From contig NZ_FBXK01000001.1 in NCBI RefSeq assembly GCF_900013425.1, forward strand, positions 866,501-930,500: a stretch of 64,000 bases of DNA, in the 5' to 3' direction. The position numbers were made by a program, and so were the translations under genes. Source of the stretch: Sphingobium sp. Z007 (lineage in GTDB: Bacteria > Pseudomonadota > Alphaproteobacteria > Sphingomonadales > Sphingomonadaceae). Below the pieces are notes generated by a model, which saw only the letters and a program-made list of their open reading frames with translations, was not told the DNA's origin and ran no database searches. Below are positions 5,838-47,397 of this stretch, in pieces (position 1 is the first letter of the stretch; every line of letters starts with the position of its first letter).

Positions 5838-6172
5838 GCGCAGCGCAACTCTTCAACGCCAAGATCTCGGGTGGGCATTCGCTGGGCAGCACCCTTTATC
5901 ACGCGAAGGGTGGCAGCGGTCGGGCCATGGCCGACATGCCGCTGGTCATAGCGGGATTATGCACTCGTACGGCGCGCAAATGGCGACGATAAGTCGTGCG
6001 CCGCTTGCTCCCTAGACGGTAAAGATTTGGGCCTGGCGAGTCGCGGCAAATAGCAGCGCTAACTAACCTCCAAATCGTTCATCCAGCGTTGGGAATCTGG
6101 AAAACAGTCCGAGACAGTCGCCCGGGAGCCTGCGCCTGTCTCGGCAGAAGCAGCTTGCGGGCCTCAATTTTT
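5838..6172. other. Gene-free junction region
   Basis: This stretch lies between the broken oxidoreductase and the first oxygenase operon. The frame from about 5840 to 5990 on the plus strand encodes a short stretch (AQLFNAKISGGHSLGSTLYH) that reads like protein, ends at a stop, and has no start codon of its own. It may be the tail of another lost gene, but I do not recognise it. The remainder shows no gene. Confidence 0.35.
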
Positions 6173-17850: not shown

Positions 17851-18708
17851 GTGAAGTTTGCTTTTGTGCATAGCTGGCGGCACCGGTGGCCCGTTGAACT
17901 GCTCTGCCGTGTCATGCTTGTCAGTGAGCGCGGCTATCGATCCTGGCGCTCGAGACCGATCAGCCAACGTGCGCGCACGGATATGAAAGTGCTGGCACAT
18001 ATCCGGGAACAGTATCGCCTCAGCCTTGGCAGCTATGGTCGTCCGAGGATGACAATGGAACTCAAGGAGGTCGGCCTCGCCGTTGGCGAGCGCCGGGTCG
18101 GTCGGCTGATGAAGATCAACGGGATCAAGCCTGTCCGCACCCGCAGGCACAAGGTGACAACGGACAGCCATCATCGCCTGGGGGTCGCAGCGAACTGGCT
18201 GGACGGCGACTTCGCCGCCGATGCGCCCAACCGTAAATGGGCAGGCGACATCACCTATATCTGGACGTCGGAGGGCTGGCTCTATCTTGCCGTCATTCTC
18301 GACCTGCATAGCCGTCGCGTCGTTGGCTGGGCAGTCAGCGACAGGATGAAGAAGGATCTGGCGATCAGGGCGCTGGATATGGCGGTGCGCCTGCGCCAGC
18401 CTCCAGAAGGCTGCCTTTTTCATTCGGATCGCGGCAGCCAATATTGTTCTTACGACTATCAGAAAAAGCTGCAGGCCTATGGCCTGCGTCCATCGATGAG
18501 CGGCAAGGGAAATTGTTACGACAATGCCTCCGTCGAGACCTTCTTCAAATCCCTGAAGGCGGAACTCATCTGGCGGCAGAGCTGGCCAACGCGGCGTCAG
18601 GCGGAAGCTGCCATCTTCCAGTACATCAATGGATTCTACAACACCCGTCGCCGCCATTCATATCTGGGCGGCATCAGCCCGCTCGCATTCGAAGCCAGGG
18701 TGGCATAA
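17851..18708 (+). CDS. IS3-family transposase OrfB (middle element)
   Basis: A DDE transposase (285 aa) starting with GTG that overlaps the orfA stop. The catalytic residues are visible in [20 protein letters not shown] (first Asp), [14 protein letters not shown] (second Asp) and [20 protein letters not shown] (Glu). The ending [15 protein letters not shown] is normal. It is intact, but its partner orfA is interrupted, so the element can only move if OrfA is supplied from elsewhere. Confidence 0.88.
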
Positions 18709-18855
18709 TGAGATAGGTGACCGGCGCAAATCCGTTACAAGTCCAGAACGCCTGAGGTTGCTGGAGCGCGAAGTGAAGGAACTACGCCGGGCCAACGAGA
18801 TTTTGCGCAAGGCATCTGCGTATTTTGCGATGGCGGAGCTCGACCGCCCCGGGAG

Positions 18856-19764
18856 ATGATGATGGCGTTCATCGACGTCCATCGCGAGGATTTGGGTATC
18901 GAGCCGATCTGCCGGGAACTGGCAATCGCCCCATCCTCCTACCATGAACACGCCGCGCGTCGTGCCGATCCCGGCAGGCGTCCAGCACGTGCGCAGCGTG
19001 ATGACGAGATCAGGGAGCAGATCAAGCGGGTCCATGAGGCCAGCTTCGGTCTCTATGGCGCACGCAAGGTCTGGCACCAGATGCGGCGTGAAGGCATCAT
19101 GGTGGCGAAATGCACGGTGGAACGATTAATGCGCGCCATGGGGCTGGCAGGCGTCCGTCGTGGGAAGAAGACGATCACCACCATCAGCAACCCGAAGGCG
19201 CCGTGTCCGCTGGACAAGGTCAATCGGGCATTTCGCGTCAGCCGGCCAAACGCCCTGTGGGTCGTCGATTTCACCTACGTGCATACTTGGGCAGGCTTCG
19301 TCTATGTCGCCTTCGTGATTGATGCTTTTGCCCGGCGGATTGTCGGATGGAAGGTCAGCACGTCAGCCACTGCCAGCTTCGTTCTGGATGCCCTGGAGCA
19401 GGCGATTCATGCCCGCAGGCCAGATCCCGATGATGGACTGATCCACCATAGCGATAGGGGAGTTCAATATCTTGCGATGAACTATACCCAGCGCTTGGCC
19501 GAGGCCAAACTCGTCCCCTCGGTCGGTAGCGTCGGTGATTCCTACGACAACGCCTTAGCCGAGACGATCAACGGCCTTTACAAGGCCGAGGTCATCTGGC
19601 GGCAGCGATCATGGCCAAGCGTTTCGGCCGTGGAAATGGCAACGCTGCGCTGGGTCGATTGGTACAATAATCACCGGCTCTTCGGCCCTATCGGGCACAT
19701 CCCGCCCGCTGAGGCCGAAGACAATTACTATGCAGCCCTCGAGAACCTCGATATGGCTGCATAG
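18856..19764 (+). CDS. IS3-family transposase OrfB (outer element)
   Basis: A DDE transposase of about 302 aa. It has [20 protein letters not shown] (first Asp), [13 protein letters not shown] (second Asp) and [19 protein letters not shown] (Glu), ending in [16 protein letters not shown]. Consecutive ATG codons begin at 18856 and overlap the orfA TGA. The coding sequence is intact although orfA upstream is split by the nested element. Confidence 0.9.
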
Positions 19765-20884: not shown

Positions 20885-21235
20885 TGCAAGCACATGTTTC
20901 GCTATCTGTACTCGCTTAGCGCAATTCAGATAACATCCGTTGCGACAAACTCATAATGGAAACTACAGCCTGTCGCCTGAATGGTCGCGAAGCGGCGCAA
21001 CCCGCACTAAAGACCAAAACCGATGGCTTTTCAGTCTTCTACACCCACCCGCGCACAGGTCTCATAAGACTGGTCTTTCAACTCGTTGACCAAGCGGGGA
21101 CCGAGCGGATGAGTATGCGTGTTGCTTCACCCGCGATCATGCGCAATAATACGGCCCTGCTGTAATTCCAGCTTGGGTATGCTGGAGCCATGTCAGATGA
21201 TGTTCAGATCGCTACATAACTCAAATCGGATTATC
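20885..21235. other. End of the Tn3 remnant and leader of the IclR gene
   Basis: 31 bp after the tnpA stop, CTTAGCG (20915-20921) matches the inner end of Tn3-type 38-bp inverted repeats, so 20915-20952 may be the old right end. The outer bases do not finish in the usual CCCC, which makes this doubtful. A frame at 20956-21165 (69 codons) has no family resemblance or clear ribosome site and is probably chance. A weak CCAGC/GCTGG hairpin lies at about 21171-21188. Confidence 0.3.
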
Positions 21236-22042
21236 ATGGACCACCAAAAAAAAGTAATAGATTCGACTGAAGATAAATTCGAAGACAATGATAGTCCGAG
21301 AAAGTCGATTCAATCGGTTGAAATTGGAGTAAGAGTCCTCCTGGCTTTGATGAAGAAGGGGGAGGGGGCGTATCTCCGAGAAGTCGCTGAGAATTCCGGC
21401 CTATCTCGTAGCCAAGCTCATCGTTATTTGCTGTCTTTTGTCAATACCGAAGTGGTCGAGCAGGACCAAAAGAGCGGACGATATTCGCTAGGGAGCTTCG
21501 CAGTACGTCTGGGCTTGGCGGCGATGGCCCGACTGGACACCGTACGGATAGCTAACATGCATTTGGAAAATCTGCTGGCAGAATTGAAGGCCACGGGCTT
21601 GCTCTGCGTTTGGGGCGACTACGGTCCGACGGTCATTCGGTGGGTCGATGGAGGAATGCCGCTGTCTACATCGCTGCACACGGGGTCAGTCCTTCCGTTG
21701 CAGACGTCATCGACCGGCATCCTCTTCTTGGCGTATTGTCCCCGAGCACAGACTTGGGAACGGGTCAAACTGGAACGGGCGGAAGGCATTATTGTTGATG
21801 ACCTCAGGCTTGAGGCCCTGATTGACGAGGCGAGGCAACTTGGTTTCGCGCGTACTTTCGGAACTTTCGTGCCGGGACTATCAGCCGTGTCAGCGCCGAT
21901 CCTAGACTCGCAAAATCGCTTGGTTGCGACGGTAAGTGTCCTAGCCCGCTCTCAACATAAAGCGGTTTTCAGCGAGGCCAAGATGGCAAAAATTATCGAG
22001 GCAGCGCAAGGCGCAAGCAGGGCGCTCGGCTGGCAGGGCTAG
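21236..22042 (+). CDS. IclR-family transcriptional regulator
   Basis: A 268-aa regulator. The N-terminal winged helix-turn-helix is VRVLLALMKKGEGAYLREVA with SGLSRSQAHRYLLSFV. The C-terminal effector domain shows the family segments SSTGILFLAYCPR, GFARTFGTFVPGLSAVSAPI and LVATVSVLARS. The ATG at 21236 is chosen because upstream in-frame starts lie in non-conserved sequence. IclR proteins commonly sense aromatic acids. It faces the alkylphenol/UbiD operon, whose last gene ends at 22208, and could control that or the oxygenase operons; its target is not known. Confidence 0.88.
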   Translation: MDHQKKVIDSTEDKFEDNDSPRKSIQSVEIGVRVLLALMKKGEGAYLREVAENSGLSRSQAHRYLLSFVNTEVVEQDQKSGRYSLGSFAVRLGLAAMARLDTVRIANMHLENLLAELKATGLLCVWGDYGPTVIRWVDGGMPLSTSLHTGSVLPLQTSSTGILFLAYCPRAQTWERVKLERAEGIIVDDLRLEALIDEARQLGFARTFGTFVPGLSAVSAPILDSQNRLVATVSVLARSQHKAVFSEAKMAKIIEAAQGASRALGWQG

Positions 22043-22207: not shown

Positions 22208-22456
22208 TCACGTGCTCTCTCGCACAATTTTTGCTCCGAGCGACGCTAGGCGCGCCTCCAACCGAGCGAGGAGCGATGCACGCACCGGCTTTCCAGCTAT
22301 CAGCTTACGCCACGTATTGTAACTTATGCCGAACTGCGCGTTGAGCGCCTCATCGGTGAGATGGGTTACCATCGCTTGCATCTGCCGCACCAGATGAGGA
22401 TCGACAGCTCTGCACCCGTTAGAGCTACCGACTTTGGGAAAACTATGGTCCTGCAT
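22208..22456 (-). CDS. Small helix-turn-helix-like protein, unknown function
   Basis: 82 aa with an AGAGAGAGA ribosome site before the ATG. The central part (THLTDEALNAQFGISYNTWR) looks like a helix-turn-helix, followed by a basic helix (RASLLARLEARLASLG). It starts 14 bp after the cytochrome gene and is probably the last gene of the operon. It might be a small regulator. I do not recognise a named family. Confidence 0.6.
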   Translation of the reverse strand: MQDHSFPKVGSSNGCRAVDPHLVRQMQAMVTHLTDEALNAQFGISYNTWRKLIAGKPVRASLLARLEARLASLGAKIVREST

Positions 22457-22470
22457 AGAATCTCTCTCTC

Positions 22471-22836
22471 TTACGGCTCTTTCGTTGTCTGAATCGCAGT
22501 GGCTGGTTTTGAGGGCTTTCCGCGCATGATGTGAGCATAAATTTCATCAATTTCCGCTTCGCTTAATTCCGTTGGACGAAATGGCGGCATCTCGATTAAT
22601 CCCTGCCGCACAACCGCGCGCAAATATTCAAGCTCAAGATCTTTCCGACCGATCAGTGCTGGCACTGGTCGCCCTGCTTGCTGAAGTAACATGGTTGCCG
22701 GGTGTCCTGGGCCAGGATCGTGGCATCCGGCGCACATCAACGCATAGTTTTCCGCGCCGTCAGCCTTCTGATCTTTCGCTTCGGCGATGCAGCCGCTCAG
22801 CGTAACTAGAAGCGACATGGCAAAGACTATTTTCAT
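22471..22836 (-). CDS. c-type cytochrome, probable electron acceptor of the flavoprotein dehydrogenase (PchC-like)
   Basis: 121 aa. An N-terminal signal with a lipobox (LVTLSGC, Cys about residue 16) predicts a lipid-anchored periplasmic protein. The single haem site CAGCH and a Met ligand region MPPFRPTELS define a class I cytochrome c domain. It lies 32 bp downstream of a 4-cresol-dehydrogenase-like flavoprotein, as the cytochrome subunit does in p-cresol methylhydroxylase. The lipoprotein signal is unusual, since the known PchC is soluble. Confidence 0.85.
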   Translation of the reverse strand: MKIVFAMSLLVTLSGCIAEAKDQKADGAENYALMCAGCHDPGPGHPATMLLQQAGRPVPALIGRKDLELEYLRAVVRQGLIEMPPFRPTELSEAEIDEIYAHIMRGKPSKPATAIQTTKEP

Positions 22837-22868
22837 TATGCCTCCAACTCGATTGATCGCCCTCCAAA

Positions 22869-24335
22869 TCAGGCGGATGCAAATAGCCCCGTGGGGTCGA
22901 GAGCCTTCTTAACCTTATCGTGCAGTATCGATAGTCCACCCTCAGCGAACGTCTTGTCGACGGTTGCACGCAGACCCGGTTCGGTGAACACTTGACCAAA
23001 CCCGGCGGTCGCCTGCATCGCAATTAAAGCTTCGGCACATTGGCGACTGCGCTCAACACTATTTTTGTCCCCGCCAGCGGAAGGTAGAAACTGGCGGTGA
23101 TTGGCGGACCGCCAGATGGCAACAGTTTCGCTGAGGAGGTCGAAACCGTGTTGCGCGCAGGCGTCACGTGAAAGCGCGTAGAGCCGCATCACTTCTTCCC
23201 CATCGACCGGGCTCACCGGATTCACTGTGAGCGCTTGGCCGCCGCTCCATCCCGCGACCTGCGTCGGTGGGCTTGCCACAGCACCGGTCATCGTGCCCAT
23301 CCTCCATGACCAAAGCCTGGGATCGACACCCTCTCCGTTTGCAATGACTTTCGCTCCAGGAACTGAACCAAAGGCACTCTTTACGCTATCCCACAGAAGC
23401 GAAACGTTGTCCGGCAAACCGTAAAGCGCGCCATAGAGGTTCCAGTATCCTAGCCCCATCAACTGGCCGGCCGCCTTGACGGCGCTTGCCGCCATGGGAC
23501 CTTGACCGGCAAAGTCGCGACGCTTTCTGCCGAGCAAAGCGGCTTCATGCAAGGCATTACCTACGGCTACGCCATTGGCGACGACCATGTTGAGCTTGAG
23601 CGGTCCGAGCACGTCAAACATCGGCGCAAGCCCTTCCTCGTCGGAGACAGTGACCATGAATGTCTTGGAAGCTGGCGGTACTGGCATCAACCAGGTCCCA
23701 ACCTTGGTCGGCACGGCAAAATCAGATTGCGTGAACAGCCCGTCAATCCAAGGGCCGTAGCCGAACTTGAACAGCTGCCAGCAGGTGCTCTTGGGCATGG
23801 CACCCATGCCGGTGCGAACCATCTTGCCATCGGCAAGCATGACCTCGAGTCCGCACTGCATCAGGAAATGATCAGAATAGGGCGTGTACCCTGCGCTACG
23901 GCTAACGAAGCTGGCAGCCACGCTCGCGTCGGGATTGCCGGTAAAATCGATCCACAGCTTAATTCCCTTGCCTTTGATATAGGCGTCAAGCTCGCGAAAG
24001 GTGACGCCGGGTTCCACCAGGCAATACGCCAGTGACTCATTCACCTCGAGGACTCGGTTCATGCGCTGCAAATCAAGCACTATGACCTGATCCAGGCCAA
24101 CTTTTTCAAGTCCGTGCGCACCATTACAGACGGGCTGCAGCACAGCACCGGCCTTTTTTGCTGTGGCAAGTGCCGCCGTCAGCTGTCCCACATCGCTAGG
24201 CATCACGACACCGATTGGAGTCGCAAGCGCTGTAGCGTAACGAGACAGTATTTTTGCAGATCGTTCTACCGCTGCGGTACCCAAGACGGCTTCGAGCGCT
24301 GCAAGCGCAGCCTTCTGGCGGGCTTGATCTGTCAT
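22869..24335 (-). CDS. VAO/4-cresol dehydrogenase family flavoprotein (divergent copy)
   Basis: A 488-aa FAD-binding oxidoreductase. The PCMH-type FAD domain is seen in VVMPSDVGQLTAALATAKKA, VLDLQRMNRVLEVNE and LVEPGVTFRELDAY, and the cap domain follows. The ATG at 24335 has GAGGAA 6 nt upstream. It starts 10 bp after the VdcD stop and is followed by the cytochrome gene. Compared with its neighbour at 27542 it lacks the Tyr-Arg pair that holds the phenolate (GQVF instead of GEYR) and the GGGH segment (GGQA here). It may therefore act on another substrate or be a partner subunit. No signal peptide is seen. Confidence 0.82.
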   Translation of the reverse strand: MTDQARQKAALAALEAVLGTAAVERSAKILSRYATALATPIGVVMPSDVGQLTAALATAKKAGAVLQPVCNGAHGLEKVGLDQVIVLDLQRMNRVLEVNESLAYCLVEPGVTFRELDAYIKGKGIKLWIDFTGNPDASVAASFVSRSAGYTPYSDHFLMQCGLEVMLADGKMVRTGMGAMPKSTCWQLFKFGYGPWIDGLFTQSDFAVPTKVGTWLMPVPPASKTFMVTVSDEEGLAPMFDVLGPLKLNMVVANGVAVGNALHEAALLGRKRRDFAGQGPMAASAVKAAGQLMGLGYWNLYGALYGLPDNVSLLWDSVKSAFGSVPGAKVIANGEGVDPRLWSWRMGTMTGAVASPPTQVAGWSGGQALTVNPVSPVDGEEVMRLYALSRDACAQHGFDLLSETVAIWRSANHRQFLPSAGGDKNSVERSRQCAEALIAMQATAGFGQVFTEPGLRATVDKTFAEGGLSILHDKVKKALDPTGLFASA

Positions 24336-24345
24336 CGTGTCTTCC

Positions 24346-24579
24346 TCACTTGCCAACTTGCTGAAGAATCTTGGGATAGCGATCTAGATTTGCCGCATCG
24401 ACAGCGAAGTCCGCCGAACGCGCACCAACCCCAATGGTGCTAGCGGGCTCGCTGTCGCGCCATGAGAAACAGCATGTAATACAGCGAAAGATCGTCCAAA
24501 CGACGGTGTCGTCCTGCCGCCCTTGATAGTCTACTATCGCGTTAGCTCTCGAACAGCGTGGACACAGCATATCGCTCAT
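24346..24579 (-). CDS. vdcD: Non-oxidative hydroxyarylic acid decarboxylase, small subunit D (VdcD-like)
   Basis: 77 aa with two Cys pairs (CPRC near the start and CITCC) forming a rubredoxin-like zinc ribbon, plus TVVWTIFRC and FSWRDSEP, the signature of VdcD/ShdD proteins. These accompany UbiD-type decarboxylases of vanillate or 4-hydroxybenzoate. The start ATG overlaps the UbiD-like stop (ATGA at 24576-24579), so translation is coupled. The protein is slightly longer at its C-terminus than I expect for the family. Confidence 0.85.
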   Translation of the reverse strand: MSDMLCPRCSRANAIVDYQGRQDDTVVWTIFRCITCCFSWRDSEPASTIGVGARSADFAVDAANLDRYPKILQQVGK

Positions 24580-26030
24580 TGTGCAACTCCTTGCTGAAGT
24601 ACCCGGATGGCTTTGCTCAGGGCATCGATTTCCAGGCCGGTTGGCGGGTTGACAAGATGCGCTTCGCCAATGGGGTCGGGACGCAGATAGCTTGTCGCGT
24701 CGATGATCAGGCGATGGCCCTTGCCCGGAACGACCGCCGACGGATCGATCGGCACGGCCGGCATGTTCGGCAGCACGATGATATCGTCGGCGCGGGTGCG
24801 GGTTGAAAGCGCCCACATGACCTGATTTAGGTCAAAGGGATCTACATCGGCATCGACCATGATCAGATTCTTGAGGTACATCACACCGTGAGGGGTGCTC
24901 AGCGCGCGTAGGGCAACGGTCTTGGCAAAACCAGCCATCCGGTTCTTGACAGAAATAATTCCTGTCAACCCATGTTGGTAGAGCGCATTGACTGCGGTTA
25001 CTTCTGGAAAGTCCTTGCGCAACTGTGCGTAAATCGGCGCCGACGTGTGCAGCCCGATGAGCGTATCATGTTCGGTCCATCCACGACCGATGTAGATATT
25101 TTCGAAGATCGGGTCTCGACGATGTGAGACAGCGGTGACTTTGAAGAGTGGCGCCTTCCGGACGCCGCTATAGGAGCCAGGGAATTCGCCGAATGGTCCT
25201 TCCAAGACTCGTTCGCCCAATTGCATTTCAGCTTCTATAACGATTTCGCTGTCCGCGAGAATATCGACACCGTTTCCCGACTTGGTCAGTCTGATCGGCG
25301 CACCCATCATCGCGGATGCGTAGGAGTATTCGGATTCCTCATAACCTATGGGAGTGGCTGCGAAGACGGCAAGCCCCGGGTGATTACCGAGCATTACCGC
25401 AATTTTGAGCGGCAGACCGGTACGTTCAGCGGCCATGATCTGCCGACCCATGTCGTGCGACGGAATGGTCATTAGGCTGAAGCAATCCGGGCCTTGCAGC
25501 TGCAGCCGGTAGATGCCGACATTCTGTTTGCCAAAATTGTCGGGATCTTCCGGATCGCGCGATGCGACTGATGCCTTTCCGAGGTAAAAGCCGCCATCAT
25601 ATTCATTGATACGGTATACTGGCAGAATATCATAGAGATTAATTCCGCTTTCTACCCGACACTCGTGGACCGGAGCTTGCTCCTCCGGAACAAAGCTGAT
25701 CTGCGCCTCGGCGTCGCCCCACCGACCGGCTATCTCAAAAAAGAGTTCGCGTATCGTCGTGCCTTTCGGACGCCCTAAAAGTAGCGCGATATTGTCCCAC
25801 GAACCGTGTACGCCGACCACGGTCCGCTTGCCAGGATAGCCCGCAATGTTGTCGAATATGATGGCAGGCGCGCCGCTGGCATCGCGCGAAGCTGCAACAG
25901 CGATGTTTCGCAGGTCTGGTTCCGGCATCACCCGATCACTCCAGGTGATCGCTTGGCCTGCATCTTTAAGCAGTTCCAGAAAATCGCGCAAAGAGGAAAT
26001 GCCGCGCGCCCTATCGGCCAAATCGTTCAT
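24576..26030 (-). CDS. vdcC: UbiD-family prenylated-FMN decarboxylase (VdcC-like)
   Basis: 484 aa. The family decarboxylates aromatic acids such as 4-hydroxybenzoate or vanillate with prenylated FMN. SSLRDFLELLKDAGQ at the start, the region around GKQNVGIYRLQLQ, and EGPFGEFPGSYSG (containing the conserved Glu residues of the cofactor site) identify it. The ATG at 26030 has an AAGGA upstream; a start 13 codons earlier lacks support. It lies between the aldehyde dehydrogenase and VdcD genes. UbiX at 29670 would make its cofactor. Confidence 0.9.
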   Translation of the reverse strand: MNDLADRARGISSLRDFLELLKDAGQAITWSDRVMPEPDLRNIAVAASRDASGAPAIIFDNIAGYPGKRTVVGVHGSWDNIALLLGRPKGTTIRELFFEIAGRWGDAEAQISFVPEEQAPVHECRVESGINLYDILPVYRINEYDGGFYLGKASVASRDPEDPDNFGKQNVGIYRLQLQGPDCFSLMTIPSHDMGRQIMAAERTGLPLKIAVMLGNHPGLAVFAATPIGYEESEYSYASAMMGAPIRLTKSGNGVDILADSEIVIEAEMQLGERVLEGPFGEFPGSYSGVRKAPLFKVTAVSHRRDPIFENIYIGRGWTEHDTLIGLHTSAPIYAQLRKDFPEVTAVNALYQHGLTGIISVKNRMAGFAKTVALRALSTPHGVMYLKNLIMVDADVDPFDLNQVMWALSTRTRADDIIVLPNMPAVPIDPSAVVPGKGHRLIIDATSYLRPDPIGEAHLVNPPTGLEIDALSKAIRVLQQGVAQ

Positions 26031-26052
26031 GTCCCGTTCCTTCCGCTGCCGT

Positions 26053-27498
26053 TCAGTGGCTGCTGGCAATAGCCGTTGCAGATTGGATTGTTACCCATTT
26101 CCATTCGGTCATGATCTCAAGATCTGCTTCGGTTCCTTCCCGTCCGAACCCGGAAGCTTTGGTTCCCCCGAATGGAACATGCGGTTCATCGTACAGGGTT
26201 GGGGCGTTGATGTGCACCATTCCGCTCTCGGCTTCCCTGGCAAAGCGCAAGGCTTTGTCGAGGTCGCGCGTGAATATCGCGGCAGAGAGGCCATAGTCGG
26301 TCTCGTTGGCCAGTTTGATCGCTTCTTCGAGCGTATCGAACGGATAGAGCGACGTTACAGGCCCAAAGGTTTCTTCTGCAAACACGGTCATATCAGCAGT
26401 AACGCCGCTGAGCACCGTGGCAGCGCAGCAGTTGCCATTCCATTCACCGCCGGCGAGCACTTCAGCGCCCTTGGCGCGGGCATCATCGACATGGCTGCGC
26501 ACACGATCACGCTGGCGGCTGGAAATGATCGGCCCTAACATGGTGGTTGGATCGCGAAGGTCGCCCGTTCTGGCGCCAGTGGCTGCGGCGGCGAAGGCTT
26601 TGGCAAAAGCTTCGAATACGGGGCGTTCAACGTAAATACGAGAAGCGCCCATACATACCTGACCTTGATACATAAAAATACTGAACAGCGCTGCGCTAAC
26701 AGCTTTGTCCAGATCGGCGTCGGCACAGACGATCAGGGGGCTCTTGCCACCCAGTTCAAGCGTATATTTCTTAAGGTTCCTCGCTGCGATTTCGGCAATG
26801 TGCTTGCCCACGCGGGACGAACCGGTGAATGTTATCGCGGCAACATTGGCGTGGCCGGTAAGAGCATCTCCGATCTCCGCGCCATTTCCGTAGACGATGT
26901 TGAACAAGCCATCGGGTACGCCCGCCTCACGCCACAGCCCGGCGAGTAGATCGGCAAGGCGCGGCGCAGCTTCCGAAGGAAGCAGTACAAAAGCGTTGCC
27001 GGTCGCCAGCGCCATGGCCGACTGCTTTATACCCTTGATGAGAGGCACGTTGAACGGGGTTATGCCTGCCACGACGCCCACGGGCAGGCGCAAGCTCATG
27101 CTGAAACGACCTGGGGTGTCGGACGGGATTGTTTCGCCTCGGACGCGGCGAGGAACGCCTGCGGCTGCGCGCAAAAAACCGATACCAAATCGGGTCTCAA
27201 ACCCTGCCTTGGCGACAGGCGAGCCGACCTCGTCGATCAATACGTCCTGGAACTTGGCGATATCCCTTTCCAGTATCTCTGCTGCCTTGACCATCCAGCC
27301 TTCGCGAACTGCGGCCGGCAGATCACGGTGGAGGCGAAATGCAACAGTTCCTGCCTGTACCGCGCGATCGACATCGTCGACAGTGCCAGCCGCTACTCTT
27401 GCATATACACTGTCGTCGATCGGGTTGAGATCGTTGAAGTAGGCGTTGCCACCCGGCGCTACCGGGGCTCCGCCGATCCAGTGGTCCAAATTCTTCAT
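26053..27498 (-). CDS. Aldehyde dehydrogenase, aromatic-aldehyde type
   Basis: An NAD(P)-dependent dehydrogenase of 481 aa. It contains the catalytic Glu in LELGGKSPLIV, the catalytic Cys in QGQVCMGASR and the cofactor loop FTGSSRVGKHIAE. The sequence type is close to benzaldehyde or vanillin dehydrogenases. From its place between a 4-alkylphenol-oxidising flavoprotein and a hydroxybenzoate decarboxylase, the likely job is 4-hydroxybenzaldehyde (or vanillin) to the acid. The Met at 27498 begins the usual MKNLDHWIGG; the frame upstream is open but not conserved. Confidence 0.88.
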   Translation of the reverse strand: MKNLDHWIGGAPVAPGGNAYFNDLNPIDDSVYARVAAGTVDDVDRAVQAGTVAFRLHRDLPAAVREGWMVKAAEILERDIAKFQDVLIDEVGSPVAKAGFETRFGIGFLRAAAGVPRRVRGETIPSDTPGRFSMSLRLPVGVVAGITPFNVPLIKGIKQSAMALATGNAFVLLPSEAAPRLADLLAGLWREAGVPDGLFNIVYGNGAEIGDALTGHANVAAITFTGSSRVGKHIAEIAARNLKKYTLELGGKSPLIVCADADLDKAVSAALFSIFMYQGQVCMGASRIYVERPVFEAFAKAFAAAATGARTGDLRDPTTMLGPIISSRQRDRVRSHVDDARAKGAEVLAGGEWNGNCCAATVLSGVTADMTVFAEETFGPVTSLYPFDTLEEAIKLANETDYGLSAAIFTRDLDKALRFAREAESGMVHINAPTLYDEPHVPFGGTKASGFGREGTEADLEIMTEWKWVTIQSATAIASSH

Positions 27499-27541
27499 TG
27501 CTCTTCGATCCTTGATTTGGGCGCGGAACCCGCGGCTTCGA

Positions 27542-29101
27542 TCATGACAGCGCGCGCATCGCTTTGGGCCAGATGCCCTGCTTGCCCGGTGAGAGGATGC
27601 CATTTGGGTCCATTACATCCTTGATGCGATGGTGAACGTCCCACAGCGCGCCGTCATTATGCTTATAGGTCTTGGCGATCTGATCCATGAAAGCGAGGTG
27701 GGTGCGGTACTCTCCAAAGCCGCCTTCCGCCGCCTCATTGACCAGCAAACCAAACAGATCGTAGGCACCTTTGCGCATAGCCTCATCAGCCCGGTCGTAC
27801 ATGATCATCAGGATGTGATGCATGTCGCGCCAACCGACGAGAAACTCGCCGATATAATCGAACCCATGGTCATGGCAGCGCCGCTTGATGAGATTATATT
27901 GCGCAAGAGCTTCCGAGCCACTTGGCGCGGATATCGGTGAGAAGTTAATATGCCCGCCGCCACCAACCCAGTTCATGATGCTAAATTCAGTCATATTTGG
28001 CTCCCCGCGCATCAGTCGCACGCGGTAGTCCCAGGCCGGGTCGTTCTCACGGTTGAGATACAATTTGGCCCCCGGGATGCTCATCAGCGCGTCCTCGACG
28101 ATCTTCCAGTTGTTCGCGATCACAGGAAGTGGTCCATACAGCGCCCCATAGTAATTCCACATCCCCAAATGCAGGTCCGAGGCGATCCGAGTGCGGATTG
28201 AAGGTGGCAGGGGGCCCTTGCCATCGAAGTAATGACGACGCGTCGTCTTGGCAGACGCTTCCCACAAAAGATCAACTGCGACAGCGGCGTTGGGGATTAT
28301 CTGATTAACCTTGAGCGGGCGCGTGATCTCGAAGATAGCCTCGAGGTCCTCTTCCCGCTGGTAAGTTATCATGAAAGGTTTGTAGCCGGGGGGTTCAGGC
28401 ATCAGCCAGATGCCCATTTTGGTAACTACGCCGAAGTTTGATTGGGTGAACATGCCGTCGAACTGAGGCCCAGAGGCGTGCTTGGTCGCCTGCCAATGTT
28501 TCGAGCCTGCAAGAGCCCCCTGGCCGGTCCGTATCACGTCGCCGTCAGCGAGCACCACTTCCATGCCGCACTGCATGATGAAATGGTCGCCATAAGGCGT
28601 ATAGCCTGCCCCATGCTCCAGCGCGTTGCCCATCACGCCGCCCCATGCCGGTGCAGCTGGATCAACCCACAACTTACTGCCAATTGCGCGCAGGTGCCGG
28701 TATAACTGCATGTACGATACACCCGGTTCGACAAGAGCGTAACCGTATTTTTCGTTGACTTCGAGAATTCTGTTCATGCGTCGCAGGTCGAGGATGACGT
28801 AGCCGGACTTGCGGGGGGCAGGGCCGCCATAGGCAAGATTTCGACCGGTGCCGATCGTCCAGAGCGGGATTTTGTATGCGTTGGCGATCGCCAGGATCTT
28901 CTGAATCTGTTCGACCCCGTCAGGTGCAACCGCTGCGGACGGCAGCATGGCATCATCGGCTAGTGGCGAATAAGCGTCGCGATAACTCGAAAGAGGTTGT
29001 TCATCAATGAACACCCACGCTTTGCCTACCACCCCGACGAGCTCGTCAAGCGCCTTTTCGAAGTCGGCAGGTGCAATTCCCTGGGGAAGAATAGGGCTCA
29101 T
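27542..29101 (-). CDS. 4-cresol dehydrogenase / vanillyl-alcohol oxidase family flavoprotein
   Basis: 519 aa. FAD-binding segments are LWTIGTGRNLAYGGPAPR and DLRRMNRILEVNEKYGYALV. The substrate-side Tyr-Arg pair is present in FGEYRTHLAF, as are LVGWRDMHHILMIMYDR and the family ending MDPNGILSPGKQGIWPK. GGGHINFSP may carry the flavin-linking His; that alignment is from memory. Such enzymes oxidise 4-alkylphenols or 4-hydroxybenzyl alcohols via a quinone methide. The start overlaps the stop of the Tat-signal gene (ATGA). The native acceptor could be the cytochrome at 22471 or O2. Confidence 0.88.
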   Translation of the reverse strand: MSPILPQGIAPADFEKALDELVGVVGKAWVFIDEQPLSSYRDAYSPLADDAMLPSAAVAPDGVEQIQKILAIANAYKIPLWTIGTGRNLAYGGPAPRKSGYVILDLRRMNRILEVNEKYGYALVEPGVSYMQLYRHLRAIGSKLWVDPAAPAWGGVMGNALEHGAGYTPYGDHFIMQCGMEVVLADGDVIRTGQGALAGSKHWQATKHASGPQFDGMFTQSNFGVVTKMGIWLMPEPPGYKPFMITYQREEDLEAIFEITRPLKVNQIIPNAAVAVDLLWEASAKTTRRHYFDGKGPLPPSIRTRIASDLHLGMWNYYGALYGPLPVIANNWKIVEDALMSIPGAKLYLNRENDPAWDYRVRLMRGEPNMTEFSIMNWVGGGGHINFSPISAPSGSEALAQYNLIKRRCHDHGFDYIGEFLVGWRDMHHILMIMYDRADEAMRKGAYDLFGLLVNEAAEGGFGEYRTHLAFMDQIAKTYKHNDGALWDVHHRIKDVMDPNGILSPGKQGIWPKAMRALS

Positions 29102-29673
29102 GACCGGTGTCCTTCCAATTCATAAACCCACGAAGTCAGCATACCCGGGCTGCTGTCGGGCAGCGAGCACTCGGCTGATGTGCAGATGTTCGCCGATGGC
29201 TCAGATCTGCCATCAACGGCGTCACGCAACTTTTGCGCGACCGCCACTGGCCAGTCGTGCGCTGCGGCCTCGAGGAGGCGAGCTTCGCCCACGGTCCGAT
29301 GAACCCACCTACTGTCTGTATAATGATGTTGCCAAAGAAGACGCGAATAAGCGCCACGATGGCTCAACACCATGCCGGCGATCATCGCGGCGGGGTCAGA
29401 GGTTAGCCCAACAATCATGCCTACTGGCGCTTCGAGCTCTTCGAGCAACCCGTTGAGCGAGCGGTCGATACGGATTACTTTATCTACTGATCCGCCAACA
29501 GCCCACGCGGAGGCGAACTGGCGGCTTTCGGGGACGGCGCTTTCCTCAACCAACGTGACGCCATAGTGCGCTCTTGGCATTCTAAGAAGAAAGCTTCCCA
29601 AGCCTGTTGCTGCAGCTCCGGCCGCGCAGGCCCCTAACACATCCCTACGTCTGATCATCCAATCCATCATCAC
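29098..29673 (-). CDS. Tat-signal protein of unknown function, coupled to the flavoprotein gene
   Basis: 191 aa. The N-terminus MIRRRDVLGACAAGAAATG is a twin-arginine signal, so the protein is exported folded. The mature part shows no family I recognise. Its start overlaps the UbiX stop and its stop overlaps the flavoprotein start, which argues for a fixed-ratio partnership. By analogy with gluconate dehydrogenase subunit 3, a small Tat-signal subunit, it may carry the signal-less flavoprotein across the membrane. That role is inference. Confidence 0.7.
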   Translation of the reverse strand: MMMDWMIRRRDVLGACAAGAAATGLGSFLLRMPRAHYGVTLVEESAVPESRQFASAWAVGGSVDKVIRIDRSLNGLLEELEAPVGMIVGLTSDPAAMIAGMVLSHRGAYSRLLWQHHYTDSRWVHRTVGEARLLEAAAHDWPVAVAQKLRDAVDGRSEPSANICTSAECSLPDSSPGMLTSWVYELEGHRS

Positions 29674-30281
29674 TGCCTTTCGGGTTGGAGTGGGGTCGAA
29701 GTTTCGGCGCGTTCGCCGGTAAGGCCCTGCCAGCGATCCTGTATGTTACCATGTACGCCAAACTGATCGAGCACCCGCATACAGCTATGATCGACGATGT
29801 CGCACAGGTCGATGGGGCGGCTATAAAATGCAGGAACCGGAGGAAAAATCACCGCTCCCATTTCAGTGCATGCGATCATGTTGCGCAGGTGTGCGAGGTT
29901 TAGCGGTGTTTCACGCGTCATCATCACCAATTTGCGCCTTTCCTTGAGCATGACGTCAGCTGCGCGTGTGATCAAATTGTCGGATAGCCCGTTGGCAACC
30001 GCGGCGAGCGTCCTCATCGAACATGGAGCGATCACCATACCCTCGCACAGGAAAGAACCGCTCGCGATGCTTGCGCCAACATTGCGAATGCTGTGAAGAA
30101 CATCGGCGGCATCCTCGATCTGCTGACGACCGTTAACAAGTTCCTCGCGGATGTTAAGCAAGGCGGCTTGCGACATGATGAGATGGGTTTCCCAGCCTCC
30201 ATGATCTCTCAGCATTGATAATAGACGCTGCCCATATATCGCACCTGTCGCTCCGGTTATGGCGACGACAATACGTTTCAT
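29670..30281 (-). CDS. vdcB: Flavin prenyltransferase UbiX (VdcB-like)
   Basis: 203 aa. The enzyme attaches a prenyl group to FMN, producing the cofactor of UbiD decarboxylases. Diagnostic motifs are VVAITGATGAIYGQRLL, the APCSM region in MVIAPCSMRTLAAVANG, and the flavin/prenyl-binding TRETPLNLAHLRNM. It is the first gene of the minus-strand operon that ends near 22208. The separate UbiD and VdcD genes lie about 3.6 kb downstream, with the oxidation genes placed between them. Confidence 0.92.
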   Translation of the reverse strand: MKRIVVAITGATGAIYGQRLLSMLRDHGGWETHLIMSQAALLNIREELVNGRQQIEDAADVLHSIRNVGASIASGSFLCEGMVIAPCSMRTLAAVANGLSDNLITRAADVMLKERRKLVMMTRETPLNLAHLRNMIACTEMGAVIFPPVPAFYSRPIDLCDIVDHSCMRVLDQFGVHGNIQDRWQGLTGERAETSTPLQPERQ

Positions 30282-30409: not shown

Positions 30410-32875
30410 TCAATACTTGTAGCCTACTTTGAGGAACCATTCGCGTGGTCGGGAATAAGTGGCGCCTGCCGCACCGCCAACGTCCAAATCGACATATCCG
30501 CCTTGGATGTAGCGCTTGTCAGCCAAATTGGTTACACCAGCAGTTACGGTGAAATGTTCCCCCGGCAGCGCGTAAGATGCGTTCGCACCAAAGACGCTGT
30601 AGCCTGATTGGTACAGCTGCGGGCTGTTGACTGCATCCTTGAAGGTGCCGCTTTGATAGTACCAATCACCTCGGATTGACAGCTTACCATTGTCGTTGTC
30701 GAATGCGGTAATGTTGGCTGCCACCGTCGTCGTCCACTCGGGCACGAAGGCGAATTTCGAACCCAAATTGACGGGAAACGCTGACGGATCAACTGTGCGA
30801 TATTTGGCGTCGAGATAACCTAGGCCATAATCAATCCGCAGCCAATCGGTTGGAGCTGCCTGTCCTTCGACCTCGAAGCCTTTGATCCGTCCCTTGCCGG
30901 CGTTGCGTACCTTCGGCGCGATCCCCTCGTTCACGACGATCTGGATGTCGGAGTAATCCGATTGAAACAACGCCAGGTTCAAGCGAAGGCGCCGATCGAA
31001 CAGTTCGGTTTTAAGGCCGATTTCATACGATGTCACGAATTCCGGTGTAAACGAGGGCGTGACTTGTTCGGCCGGGAAGATGCGCTGGCTGAAGCCACCA
31101 TTTTTAAAGCCCTTCGAGTAGGAGGCATACCCCATGATGTCATCCGTGAACTGGTAGTTCGCCGCGACCGACGGTGTCCATTCCTTCGCCTTTGCATTAA
31201 CCTCGACGGCAGGCATGGTATGGTTGCCGCCGGGATTGACCGCCGCAGGCACACACGCCGGGTCAGGGAACCCATTTGGCAGAAGCTGCGGTACCGCCTG
31301 TCCGACAATGCAGCGACTATACTGTATAAATACGCCATCAGGATATGGCGGAAGTACGCCTTGCGTATAATCACGCGTAATGACCTGCGCCGAAGGATCG
31401 AAGCGTTTGGTCTCATCTGTGTAGCGAATACCGGGAGTTATTGACAGGCGATCTGTAACGTCGAACGTTGCCTGAAGATAAGCGGCGTAGCTGTCATTGT
31501 TAATTTTGCCACCGCTGAAGAAATTAGCAAAGCCGAATCGTAATGGTTCGATGTCCTCACCTTTCTCCTTAAGGTAAAAGGCACCCAAGGTGAATTTAAG
31601 CCGGTCATCTAGTACGCTTCCTATCAGTTGAAGCTCCTGTGACGCCTGCCAGAGATCGATATTGTTGGTAAGACCCAGCACCTCAAGCGGGGTCACGTCA
31701 AAATCAAATTCAATAGTCGACTTCTGGTCGCGATAGGCGCTGATCGACTTAAGCGTCACATCTCCCATGTCGTATTCCAGCGTCAAGTTCGTTCCCCAGA
31801 GGTCGAAATCGGATCGGTTGGGGCCACCGGCCCAGGTCTCGTCGATGTCGTCGGTTAGCCAACGAGAGGAGACGCAATTGGGATTACTAACTGGAGCAAG
31901 CTCTCCAGGTGCGCCGCACTGCCCAGCACCGCCGCCAAGTTTGTTATATCCGAAGTTGGAGCTGGGAAATGCCACCGTCCGACCGTTAATGTTCACGATC
32001 TGCAATAGGTCGGGCGAGTCCCGATTCTCAACGAGCGTGTAGGCTGCTGATGCTTCTCGGCGGATGTTCACGTCGCCCGCGAGGGTCGCGGTGAAAGCAT
32101 CGCTAGGTTCCCACTTAAACGTTACACGTCCTGAAAAGCTGTCCTTGTCGCCTTGCCGGCCGCCGTCGAACAAGCGACGTTGGTACCCGTCTCGCGTTTC
32201 GTAGGAGGCAACTGCGCGCATGGCGAGTGTATCGCTGATGGGTATATTCACAATGCCCTTAACGTCGGCTCGGTTGAACCGTCCGGTTGTCGCCTCAAGC
32301 TGCAACTCGAATTTGTCCGTCGGCTGTTTGCTGTTGACAATGATTGCGCCGCCGATCGTATTCTTGCCAAACAGTGTGCCCTGCGGCCCGCGCAGAATCT
32401 GCACACTGCCGATATCGGCCATGTCGAGCAGACCGCCGACCGAACGCGCAACATAGACGCCATCAACATAGATTCCGACACCAGGATCTACTGTGATATT
32501 GAAGTCGGTTTGACCGACACCGCGGATGAAGGCTGTGAGCGACGCGCTAGACCCAGAGATATTGCCTACCGGCTGAATATTGACGTTTGGTGCGTAGGAT
32601 GCGACCTGCGCCACGTTAGCGATCTGCCGGTCTTCAATCATACTGCCGCTCATTGCCGTGATGGCAATTGGCGTGTCCTGCGCATTCTCCTCGCGTTTGC
32701 GTGCGGTTACGACAATATCGTCGAGACCTCGCCTGCTCTGCTCACTAGCGGCTTGGGGAGCTGCCGCATCCTGGGCCCAGGCCGAGGTCGACGATGCGAC
32801 TATATATCCAATCGCTAAGCTGCTGCCCGCCAAAAAGAATGCCCGCTTCCTAGCAATGCGCAAAATAGTGTTCAT
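30410..32875 (-). CDS. TonB-dependent outer-membrane receptor
   Basis: 821 aa. A signal peptide ends about residue 35 (ASSTSAWAQ), a TonB-box-like DDIVVTARKREENAQ follows, then the plug domain (GQTDFNITVDPGVGIYVDGV, LRGPQGTLFGKNTIGGAI). The beta barrel ends in the aromatic-terminated strand WFLKVGYKY. The ATG at 32875 has GGGAGAG upstream. Sphingomonads use many such receptors for hydrophobic or large substrates. Its place between the UbiD operon and an oxygenase operon suggests uptake of an aromatic compound, not an iron chelate. Confidence 0.9.
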   Translation of the reverse strand: MNTILRIARKRAFFLAGSSLAIGYIVASSTSAWAQDAAAPQAASEQSRRGLDDIVVTARKREENAQDTPIAITAMSGSMIEDRQIANVAQVASYAPNVNIQPVGNISGSSASLTAFIRGVGQTDFNITVDPGVGIYVDGVYVARSVGGLLDMADIGSVQILRGPQGTLFGKNTIGGAIIVNSKQPTDKFELQLEATTGRFNRADVKGIVNIPISDTLAMRAVASYETRDGYQRRLFDGGRQGDKDSFSGRVTFKWEPSDAFTATLAGDVNIRREASAAYTLVENRDSPDLLQIVNINGRTVAFPSSNFGYNKLGGGAGQCGAPGELAPVSNPNCVSSRWLTDDIDETWAGGPNRSDFDLWGTNLTLEYDMGDVTLKSISAYRDQKSTIEFDFDVTPLEVLGLTNNIDLWQASQELQLIGSVLDDRLKFTLGAFYLKEKGEDIEPLRFGFANFFSGGKINNDSYAAYLQATFDVTDRLSITPGIRYTDETKRFDPSAQVITRDYTQGVLPPYPDGVFIQYSRCIVGQAVPQLLPNGFPDPACVPAAVNPGGNHTMPAVEVNAKAKEWTPSVAANYQFTDDIMGYASYSKGFKNGGFSQRIFPAEQVTPSFTPEFVTSYEIGLKTELFDRRLRLNLALFQSDYSDIQIVVNEGIAPKVRNAGKGRIKGFEVEGQAAPTDWLRIDYGLGYLDAKYRTVDPSAFPVNLGSKFAFVPEWTTTVAANITAFDNDNGKLSIRGDWYYQSGTFKDAVNSPQLYQSGYSVFGANASYALPGEHFTVTAGVTNLADKRYIQGGYVDLDVGGAAGATYSRPREWFLKVGYKY

Positions 32876-33040
32876 TTTTCTCTCCCTGATAGAATAAAGT
32901 GAAATTTCCACCACATTTATCCTTTATATTATTATTATAAGTACTTAAAGTAATCGTTTATCAAGTGAAACAACCTAGATACAACTAGTAACAATTCTTC
33001 CGTCTGGAAAATTGACTAAATGTCATGTCCATGAACGATT

Positions 33041-43675: not shown

Positions 43676-44599
43676 ATGGCTTTGACCGGTGTACTCCGCC
43701 CTGGATATGTGCAGTTGCGGGTTCTGGACCTTGAAGAGTCCATCCTTCATTATCGCGACCGGATCGGTCTCAATCTCGTCAGCGTTGAAGGCGGTCGCGC
43801 CTTTTTCCAGGCTTTCGATGAGTTTGACCGCCACAGCATCATCCTGCGCGAGGCGGATTCGGCCGGTCTGGACAGAATGGGGTTCAAGGTCGCGAAGGAT
43901 TCGGACTTGGATCATTTTGCCGAGCGCCTGCTCGATGCGGGCGTGCATGTCGATGTCATTCCGGCCGGTGAGGAACCCGGGGTTGGGCGGAAGATCCGTT
44001 TCAATACGCCAACCGGACATATGTTCGACCTTTTTGCGGAAATGGAGCTGTCCGAAACCGGACCTGCAGTCCGAAATCCCGATGTCTGGATTGCCGAACC
44101 GCGAGGAATGCGCGCGACGCGTTTTGATCATTGCGCACTCAACGGCGTGGACATTTCAGCAAGCGCCAAGATTTTCGTCGAAGCTCTGGACTTCTCAGTA
44201 ACCGAGGAATTGGTCGACGAAGCCTCCGGTCAACGCCTCGGAATATTCCTGTCGTGCAGCAACAAGGCCCACGACGTCGCTTTTCTGGGATATCCGGAAG
44301 ACGGCCGTATTCACCACACCTCTTTCTGCCTTGAATCCTGGCATGACGTCGGGCACGCAGCTGACATTATCAGCCGTTACGATATCTCGCTCGATATCGG
44401 GCCGACGCGCCATGGTATCACCCGCGGCCAGACGATCTATTTCTTCGACCCGTCCGGCAATCGCAACGAGACGTTCAGCGGCGGTTATTTCTACTATCCG
44501 GACAACCCACGCCGCATGTGGCAGGCCGAGAATGCCGGCAAGGCGATCTTCTATTATGAAAAGGCACTGAACGACCGCTTCATGACGGTCAATACCTGA
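43676..44599 (+). CDS. xylE: Catechol 2,3-dioxygenase (XylE-like)
   Basis: 307 aa. Extradiol enzyme of the I.2.A type. Iron ligands are His in RFDHCALNG, His in RIHHTSFCLE and Glu in SGNRNETFSGG; the ending YYPDNPRRMW is typical. It opens catechol or methylcatechols to 2-hydroxymuconate semialdehydes. It lies between xylF and a HbpS-like gene; a XylT-like ferredoxin that could reactivate it is at 50351. Confidence 0.94.
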   Translation: MALTGVLRPGYVQLRVLDLEESILHYRDRIGLNLVSVEGGRAFFQAFDEFDRHSIILREADSAGLDRMGFKVAKDSDLDHFAERLLDAGVHVDVIPAGEEPGVGRKIRFNTPTGHMFDLFAEMELSETGPAVRNPDVWIAEPRGMRATRFDHCALNGVDISASAKIFVEALDFSVTEELVDEASGQRLGIFLSCSNKAHDVAFLGYPEDGRIHHTSFCLESWHDVGHAADIISRYDISLDIGPTRHGITRGQTIYFFDPSGNRNETFSGGYFYYPDNPRRMWQAENAGKAIFYYEKALNDRFMTVNT

Positions 44600-44601
44600 C
44601 C

Positions 44602-45033
44602 ATGGACGGCCTGGTGACCATCCGGACAATCGGACACGCCCTTGCCGCTCAAGCGGTTTCGGCTTCGGTTGCCAAGGGACAGGAAGCCGGCTGCGCGGTC
44701 GTTGCCGCAGTCATCGGGGGAGGGGGCGATTTGGTGGCAATGCTGCGCGCGAGCGGCGCACCATTCCCCTCGTCGCAGATCGCTCAGGACAAGGCTTATA
44801 CCGCTGCCAGCTTCAGGGTTTCGACCCTTGAAGTGTACCAGATGGTAGCGGGCAATCCAGCTCTGAGCACCGGTCTGGCGATTCAACCGGGAATTGTAAT
44901 GTTCGGCGGAGGACTGCCGATCGTAATCGACGGCGAATTCGTCGGCGCAATCGGCGTCTCGGGTGGGTCTGAAGAACTCGATATTGCATGTGCGAACGCC
45001 GGCTTGTCAGCGATCGGCGGGCGACAGCATTAA
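44602..45033 (+). CDS. HbpS/GlcG-family (DUF336) protein
   Basis: 143 aa with IAQDKAYTAASFRVST and the glycine-rich end GGGLPIVIDGEFVGAIGVSGG, the mark of the GlcG/HbpS family. It begins 2 bp after xylE. Members are common inside aromatic meta-cleavage operons; some bind haem or small molecules, but the role here is unknown. Confidence 0.85.
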   Translation: MDGLVTIRTIGHALAAQAVSASVAKGQEAGCAVVAAVIGGGGDLVAMLRASGAPFPSSQIAQDKAYTAASFRVSTLEVYQMVAGNPALSTGLAIQPGIVMFGGGLPIVIDGEFVGAIGVSGGSEELDIACANAGLSAIGGRQH

Positions 45034-45073
45034 ATGGTCTGCGCGCGCAAATAAGATGGAACGAAGTAAGCAG

Positions 45074-46558: not shown

Positions 46559-46562
46559 GATC

Positions 46563-47375: not shown

Positions 47376-47397
47376 AGATTGGAAGAGAAACAAGCAT

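Follow-up and report, generated by a model that had tools for sequence, protein, structure and literature searches.

A stretch of 64,000 nucleotides from Sphingobium sp. Z007 (contig NZ_FBXK01000001.1, positions 866,501 to 930,500; "the window" below) carries, on its minus strand between 22208 and 30281, a run of nine tightly packed, same-strand genes that a sequence-only reading had described as an operon joining alkylphenol oxidation to a UbiX/UbiD/VdcD decarboxylase. The enzymes of this operon are considered here together with a small protein bearing a twin-arginine translocation (Tat) signal, which is proposed to carry one of them across the membrane. All nine open reading frames (ORFs) were verified, and the gene identities assigned earlier hold. 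In minus-strand order the genes encode UbiX, the Tat-signal protein, flavoprotein 1 (FP1), aldehyde dehydrogenase (ALDH), UbiD, VdcD, flavoprotein 2 (FP2), cytochrome c and a helix-turn-helix (HTH) protein:

29670..30281, minus strand: ubiX, flavin prenyltransferase, for the supply of prenylated flavin mononucleotide (prFMN); NF004685, 269 bits, cut-off 188
29098..29673, minus strand: Tat-signal protein (RRRDVLGA...), proposed Tat hitchhiker of FP1; no Pfam/NCBIfam family, family alignments A3/A4
27542..29101, minus strand: FP1, 4-phenol dehydrogenase-type flavoprotein of the vanillyl-alcohol oxidase/p-cresol methylhydroxylase (VAO/PCMH) group; PF01565 and PF02913, PDB matches, residue table
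26053..27498, minus strand: ALDH; PF00171
24576..26030, minus strand: UbiD/VdcC decarboxylase; NF041204, 672 bits; longest ORF from 26069
24346..24579, minus strand: VdcD zinc-ribbon subunit with two CXXC motifs; NF041205, 62.6 bits
22869..24335, minus strand: FP2, diverged flavoprotein, proposed non-catalytic subunit; PF01565 only; longest ORF from 24356
22471..22836, minus strand: cytochrome c with a single haem site (CAGCH) and, by eye, a lipobox-like LSGC, proposed to accept electrons from FP1; PF13442 (Cytochrome_CBB3)
22208..22456, minus strand: HTH-like protein of 82 aa, last gene of the run, outside the conserved module; no family match

With the starts selected for this list, neighbouring genes either overlap by 4 bases (ubiX/Tat gene, Tat gene/FP1 and ubiD/vdcD) or are separated by gaps of 10 (vdcD/FP2), 14 (cytochrome/HTH), 22 (ALDH/ubiD), 32 (FP2/cytochrome) and 43 bases (FP1/ALDH), which confirms the tight spacing of nine minus-strand genes claimed from the sequence. 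The decarboxylase genes are indeed split as claimed, ubiX lying apart from ubiD/vdcD. The Tat gene can begin at a GTG at 29673, overlapping the ubiX stop, or at an ATG at 29670; the ALDH start was set by alignment with relatives, the longest ORF beginning at 27603. Neither the Tat protein nor the 82-aa HTH protein matched a Pfam or NCBIfam model at E 0.001.

Eight of the genes, all but the HTH gene, recur in the same order and on the same strand on pNL1 of Novosphingobium aromaticivorans F199, Sphingobium fuliginis KK22 p1 and S. yanoikuyae SJTF8 pF2. A search of genomes for the same gene order, suggested in the sequence-only reading, found it both in these plasmids and in many sphingomonad genome loci. 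Given this shared order and strand, the eight-gene arrangement exceeds chance. A species-genome scan with an FP2 profile yielded 69 loci from the best 80 of 309 relatives, which together with five plasmid loci gave 74 for examination; since the loci were collected through FP2, the presence of FP2 among them is biased, while the neighbouring genes were not part of the query. Rearranged versions of the module are found in Beta- and Gammaproteobacteria, so that the combination is kept across three proteobacterial classes. On pBN2 of Paraburkholderia aromaticivorans BN5 the order is Tat protein-FP1-cytochrome-ALDH-ubiD-vdcD-FP2-ubiX; a copy on pBN3 follows it from FP1 onward, with an IS5-family transposase before a shortened FP1. 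FP1, ubiD, vdcD and FP2 also occur together in Cycloclasticus, in other gammaproteobacterial metagenome-assembled genomes (MAGs) and in Rhodocyclaceae/Rugosibacter, with a cytochrome match in most. The HTH gene, by tblastn at E 1e-6, was found in only three of the 74 loci besides the window (L012-L014, from Sphingobium spp.), and these encode an FP2 100% identical to that of the window (tblastn). Thus, of the nine-gene unit proposed earlier, eight genes form a conserved module and the HTH gene falls outside it. A Myxococcota-assigned MAG (L043) encodes the Tat protein, FP1, a cytochrome and another flavoprotein, its ubiD/vdcD lying on the other strand.

FP1 contains both FAD_binding_4 (PF01565) and FAD-oxidase_C (PF02913). 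Matched to eugenol oxidase, whose phenolate-binding residues are Y91/Y471/R472 (PMC11148156), the phenolate triad of FP1 is present as Y91, Y465 and R466. At flavin N5, oxidases of this group are reported to have Leu plus Asp/Glu and dehydrogenases Pro/Ile plus a small residue (PMC7617285); FP1 has Ala150/Pro151. Across 68 full-length FP1-class proteins, selected for H384, Y465 and R466 and including that of the window, Y91 is kept in 68/68, P151 in 65/68 and A150 in 61/68. An Allonocardiopsis relative (L054) has the oxidase pair D/L at columns 150/151. FP1 has His (H384) at the flavin-linking column, as in oxidases, and so joins an oxidase-type His with a dehydrogenase pair; because of H384 it is not filed here as a strict PCMH.

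Could FP1 be a cytoplasmic enzyme of the vanillyl-alcohol/eugenol oxidase type that uses O2, with some other role for the Tat protein? Its best solved relatives by sequence, the 8S7P series ('Oxidoreductase') and eugenol oxidase, would fit this, as would the retained His, which PMC7617285 assigns to oxidases, although the same source reports a dehydrogenase (VAD) with His plus Pro. The Pro151/Ala150 pair, the cytochrome c gene within the cluster and the association of Tat signals with cytochrome-linked relatives, described below, make an O2-using enzyme quite improbable. On its dehydrogenase signature, its triad and the cytochrome c of the operon, FP1 is probably part of a periplasmic flavocytochrome, and would pass its electrons to that cytochrome. 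The cytochrome c gene directly follows FP1 in Paraburkholderia, several Rhodocyclaceae, Cycloclasticus and other gammaproteobacterial loci. Two points count against a flavocytochrome: the oxidase-type His itself, and the separation of the FP1 and cytochrome genes in sphingomonad loci. An FP1-like paralogue in L046 (14920-16488), L058, L061, L070, L121 and L124 has Leu-Lys in place of the phenolate Tyr-Arg and retains His384; possibly it acts on a different substrate.

The sequence-only reading had listed the Tat-signal protein as one gene of the run. It is present, and it is not incidental: a member of its family accompanies FP1 in 55 of 66 FP1 loci (profile from 57 members), which makes it a conserved FP1 partner. 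Of the 55, 15 entered the profile directly as rows and 40 did not, many of the latter being close kin of rows. The arginine pair and two His are invariant in an alignment of 21 members, and the pair is nearly invariant in one of 57; of the 63 homologues, the window's own included, that a protein database gave among its 8000 top-ranked candidates, none is functionally named. More distant members outside the profile were still detected in L044, L050, L056 and L069. The gene follows the cytochrome in L044, L050 and L056, and is split over two frames in L064. Among the 11 FP1 loci without a family member, four have an FP1 with an N-terminal Tat signal of its own (L047, L053, L057 and L072), four are truncated or rearranged on the side concerned (L005, L030, L051 and L067) and one is the oxidase-type locus L054; the last two, L042 and L055, are taken up below. 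Tat signals were scored by a rule of motif and hydrophobicity, not by a signal-peptide predictor, and by the motif rule the FP1 of the window has none.

Loci outside those used for the profile extend the association. FP1 relatives occur in 11 of 369 sampled genomes of the gammaproteobacterial class, from which 13 stretches were read, L123 being left out as a repeat of L046. Tat-family members stand beside a flavoprotein and a cytochrome in L112-L116 and L120-L122. L111 has a Tat-signal protein between cytochrome and flavoprotein that matches the profile weakly (9.6 bits, filters off), and L119 has a Tat-like ORF that the family profile does not recognise; in L117, L118 and L124 neither a family member nor a cytochrome was found. 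For comparison, Tat-like ORFs number 10 among 278 others of 120-260 aa, and three of the ten belong to the family. A Tat partner accompanies 30 of 39 cytochrome-linked flavoproteins (25 adjacent family members, 3 own signals and 2 Tat-like ORFs), compared with 1 of 6 without a cytochrome (Fisher P 0.008; P 0.0003 when six second copies in clusters with a family member are included). These values are illustrative, as they rest on 45 representative flavoproteins with related rows and counts entered by hand, the Tat-like ORFs of L111 and L119 having been added by eye and the cytochromes scored by script within 8 kb. The Tat family or an own Tat signal tracks the cytochrome-linked relatives of FP1.

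The pairing of a small twin-arginine protein with a neighbouring FAD enzyme that lacks a signal is that of a Tat hitchhiker, and the Tat protein would, by this likeness, carry FP1 to the periplasm. The γ-α-β glucose dehydrogenase BcGDH offers a crystallised precedent, with an FAD subunit, a haem c subunit and a Tat hitchhiker (PMC6719666); it shares with the window a small Tat partner, a signal-less FAD subunit and a haem c subunit, whereas its flavoprotein is of the GMC type, unlike FP1. The window's protein, having no Pfam family, is likened to the BcGDH γ subunit by arrangement alone and is not filed as a member. Several observations speak against carriage by this protein. L042 and L055 have FP1 and a cytochrome with no recognised Tat partner, unexplained, and both enter the Fisher set as such rows; so, at contig ends, do L051 (cytochrome, no partner) and L078 (partner, no cytochrome). 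The four FP1 proteins with their own signal come from related gammaproteobacterial loci and therefore possibly represent a single event. Finally, PMC12724174 proposes that such flavoproteins are exported by way of the signal peptide of the cytochrome. The same source reports that PCMH resides in the periplasm even though its flavoprotein has no predicted signal peptide, a puzzle to which a conserved Tat partner, exchanged for a fused signal in one lineage, may be the answer. Directly upstream of the Tat-fused FP1 of L057 lie genes for a Rieske oxygenase and a SnoaL-CDGSH fusion (4066-6068), and similar ORFs are present in L047 and L053.

The p-cresol methylhydroxylase genes of Pseudomonas putida, which specify a flavocytochrome, reportedly stand in the order PchACXF. 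Both this set and the module contain a VAO/PCMH flavoprotein, a cytochrome c and an aldehyde dehydrogenase. Two of the gammaproteobacterial loci, L111 and L113, resemble PchACXF in having ALDH, cytochrome, small Tat-signal protein and flavoprotein together, and the order cytochrome-Tat protein-flavoprotein in L112-L114 matches, as a likeness of gene order, the reported pchC-pchX-pchF. The flavoproteins of L111-L114, 42-47% identical to FP1, have Ser at position 384, where FP1 has His. Compared with PchACXF, the module of the window adds a second, diverged flavoprotein and a decarboxylase.

This second flavoprotein, FP2, is about 36% identical to FP1 and keeps FAD_binding_4, without the phenolate triad or the flavin-linking His. 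Among 61 full-length proteins outside the FP1 class, a set that takes in some further paralogues, for instance the Leu-Lys type of L046/L058/L061/L070, the Tyr-Arg pair occurs in 0/61 and the His is absent in 55/61; the PP-loop GxGRN/GxGKN of FP1 is also replaced in FP2. In a tree of 41 proteins the FP1 group is supported at 100/99 with the L046/L061 type and at 98/91 without it, and opposite it the 17 FP2 rows group at 76/37, a weak support that does not establish FP2 as one clade. The sequence-only reading had listed both flavoproteins in an operon that includes alkylphenol oxidation. A role for FP2 as a second alkylphenol enzyme is the less likely one, its catalytic residues being missing and its PP-loop altered; because the triad and the flavin-linking His are missing, FP2 is more likely a non-catalytic companion subunit, which is also the simplest reading. 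PCMH of Geobacter metallireducens is said to be an α-α'-β2 complex with an FAD-free α' subunit. Both that enzyme and the module have two related flavoproteins and a cytochrome c, one difference being that FP2 is far from FP1 in sequence; FP2, lacking catalytic residues, may be a counterpart of α'.

Alternatively, FP2 might serve the decarboxylase, for example in the oxidation of prFMN. In 54 of the 74 loci the first gene matched beyond vdcD is FP2, a proximity that such a helper would explain. Set against this, L074 has FP2 behind FP1 and a cytochrome on a 7-kb contig in which ubiD was not detected; L043, L046, L058 and L070 have ubiD and gave no FP2 match, and so do L049 and L072, though the contigs of these two end soon after. 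With the bias of FP2-gathered loci also taken into account, a decarboxylase helper appears rather unlikely, and a companion subunit of FP1 is kept as the assignment.

The remaining enzymes fit the oxidation of an aromatic aldehyde and the decarboxylation of the resulting acid. The best solved relatives of the ALDH are salicylaldehyde, vanillin and benzaldehyde dehydrogenases. UbiD exceeds the curated VdcC cut-off (672 against 650 bits) and has the motifs VGIYR and EGPFGEFPG of the ERE region, aligned with its best PDB match 7AE4; VdcD scores 62.6 bits against a cut-off of 30. The VdcB model stays under its cut-off on UbiX (250.7 against 290), and the set is therefore filed as UbiX plus VdcCD and not as a strict VdcB system. 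The structure 7AE4 is described as VdcCD of S. hydroxybenzoicus, strictly dependent on VdcD, and VdcCD enzymes have been assayed on vanillic acid and 4-hydroxybenzoate (PMC8379154). Like VdcBCD/ShVdcCD, the window has ubiX, ubiD and vdcD genes, ERE-region motifs and a VdcD with two CXXC; unlike them, it has these genes within an operon for alkylphenol oxidation, where ubiX is separated from ubiD/vdcD.

Taken together, these genes suggest a pathway in two compartments, the whole of which, with a Tat-carried FP1 and a decarboxylative exit to phenol or a substituted phenol, we regard as probable on balance. The substrate would be 4-methylphenol (p-cresol) or a ring-substituted relative. FP1 would fold with FAD in the cytoplasm, cross the membrane carried by the small Tat-signal protein and, once in the periplasm, act as a 4-phenol dehydrogenase that uses water and hands its electrons to the lipoprotein cytochrome c, with FP2 as a non-catalytic companion. 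The aldehyde would be oxidized by ALDH to a 4-hydroxybenzoate-type acid; if UbiD/VdcD works in the decarboxylating direction with prFMN from UbiX, this acid would yield phenol or a substituted phenol, which would enter catechol meta-cleavage. The earlier logic of oxidation followed by decarboxylation gains from the retention of the combination in three classes, and its chemistry is plausible. Bisphenol F was considered as a substrate after PMC12724174, which describes a PCMH-like flavoprotein and a lipoprotein cytochrome c (the oxidoreductase BpfAB) in a sphingomonad; it is disfavoured, as BpfAB is clustered with a Baeyer-Villiger oxygenase and a hydrolase where the operon of the window has ALDH and UbiD.

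The fate of the product was followed in a survey of 32 hand-picked members of the 74 loci and pBN2, several of the beta/gammaproteobacterial genomes being MAGs. PF02332, the phenol/toluene diiron hydroxylase family, was found in 7 of 10 beta/gammaproteobacterial carrier genomes and on pBN2. PobA exceeds its cut-off in 2 of these 10, a third (G021) being below it. For BN5, the authors assign p-cresol oxidation to pchCF/pchA, which we infer to be the genes of the module; they report 4-hydroxybenzoate in toluene-grown cells and phenol hydroxylase genes dmpKLMNOP, with xylE, on pBN2, and the word 'decarboxylase' is absent from the main text of that genome paper (PMC6351602). Phenol, which the sequence-only reading had named as a product of the operon, is thus a good candidate for the end product in the beta- and gammaproteobacterial carriers.

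For the window's own genome phenol fits less well, and here the evidence against a phenol exit collects. PF02332 is present in 1 of 21 sphingomonad carriers and lacking in the other 20. The window's genome (4.94 Mb, 7 contigs) has no match to PF02332 or PF07976, in a search validated for PF02332 by its matches in carrier genomes, and it has PobA, so that plain 4-hydroxybenzoate already has an exit. PF02332 is also common at large in the Rugosibacter-type family of the betaproteobacterial carrier G030 (34 of 121 genomes); both genomes of that family over the VdcC cut-off have it, two carriers being too few to test co-occurrence. An HpaB-family protein of the window's genome (L083) is presumably, by eye, like CoA-dehydratase relatives, and no claim of phenol hydroxylase is made for it. 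Because PobA is present and the phenol-hydroxylase families were not found, the host of the window may use a substituted acid as the true substrate or a phenol hydroxylase of another kind.

The first of these options can be put more fully: the same enzymes would, in sphingomonads, act on a ring-substituted 4-methylphenol (2,4-xylenol or creosol) with o-cresol or guaiacol as product, decarboxylation bypassing acids that PobA cannot take. PobA is found in the window's genome and in 10 of 21 sphingomonad carriers, so that plain 4-hydroxybenzoate would need no phenol route in these hosts; the 20 sphingomonad carriers without PF02332 and the activity assays of VdcCD enzymes on vanillic acid as well as 4-hydroxybenzoate point the same way. 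The metabolite data of BN5, in contrast, fit p-cresol (PMC6351602). A ring-substituted substrate is accordingly a tentative alternative, the less probable of the two, and p-cresol is retained as the working substrate. Much of a catechol meta-cleavage pathway is encoded in the window at 43676-49364, where catechol 2,3-dioxygenase, 2-hydroxymuconic semialdehyde dehydrogenase and 4-hydroxy-2-oxovalerate aldolase exceed their cut-offs and the hydratase stays below its own.

The gene set and its assignment to p-cresol are already known: the cluster as such is that of pNL1 and Paraburkholderia BN5, and p-cresol genes have been predicted on pNL1 (PMC3946609). In the pNL1 passages of that paper no discussion of the roles of the UbiD and Tat genes was found. 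Within the open-access literature, outside which the older subscription papers (including the 1994 PCMH and 1999 pNL1 papers) fall, neither a UbiD step after aerobic p-cresol oxidation nor a Tat partner of PCMH was found treated; two papers that mention both PCMH and twin-arginine are, judged by their titles, about other matters. A broader proposal joins two claims, that the Tat family, with the protein at the pchX position of classical PCMH clusters as a member, is the dedicated carrier for the export of PCMH-type flavocytochromes in general, replaced in one lineage by a fused signal, and that the module is a widespread aerobic route from p-cresol to phenol, feeding the benzene/phenol pathway and not protocatechuate; the chances that both hold seem to us evenly balanced. 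The module is common to many pollutant-degrading bacteria. A decarboxylative exit, if true, would explain why UbiX/UbiD/VdcD is kept in an alkylphenol operon of bacteria that degrade oil and polycyclic aromatic hydrocarbons, and would extend pathway predictions that end at 4-hydroxybenzoate, for example that for BN5.

Two genes flank the operon:

30410..32914, minus strand: TonB-dependent receptor, immediately upstream in the same orientation; other sphingomonads also have homologues ahead of the module
21119..22042, plus strand: regulator of the IclR/PcaR type, facing the operon convergently and a candidate for its control; PF01614 and PF09339, TIGR02431 below cut-off

Homologues of the IclR/PcaR-type protein lie near the module in many sphingomonads. 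Promoter-like and terminator-like sites showed no excess over shuffled sequence (7 against 6.8 and 8 against 9.8). At 59951-61591 the window encodes an XylR/DmpR-type σ54 activator with a V4R domain (best NCBIfam match MobR, below cut-off), and a similar σ54 regulator stands divergently beside the module in Cycloclasticus (L062, 2825-4510). About 2-4 kb past the distal end of the operon, transposase-like ORFs, recognised by eye, occupy 17851-19764, and an ALIL pseudoknot (Rfam RF01497) lies near them at 18817-18931. These elements, near 18-20 kb, and the many other catabolic genes in the window would suit a vestigial or mosaic catabolic island, its genes held together by transposition and serving no single pathway; as the frames are intact, starts overlap and synteny extends across three classes, such an origin is very improbable.

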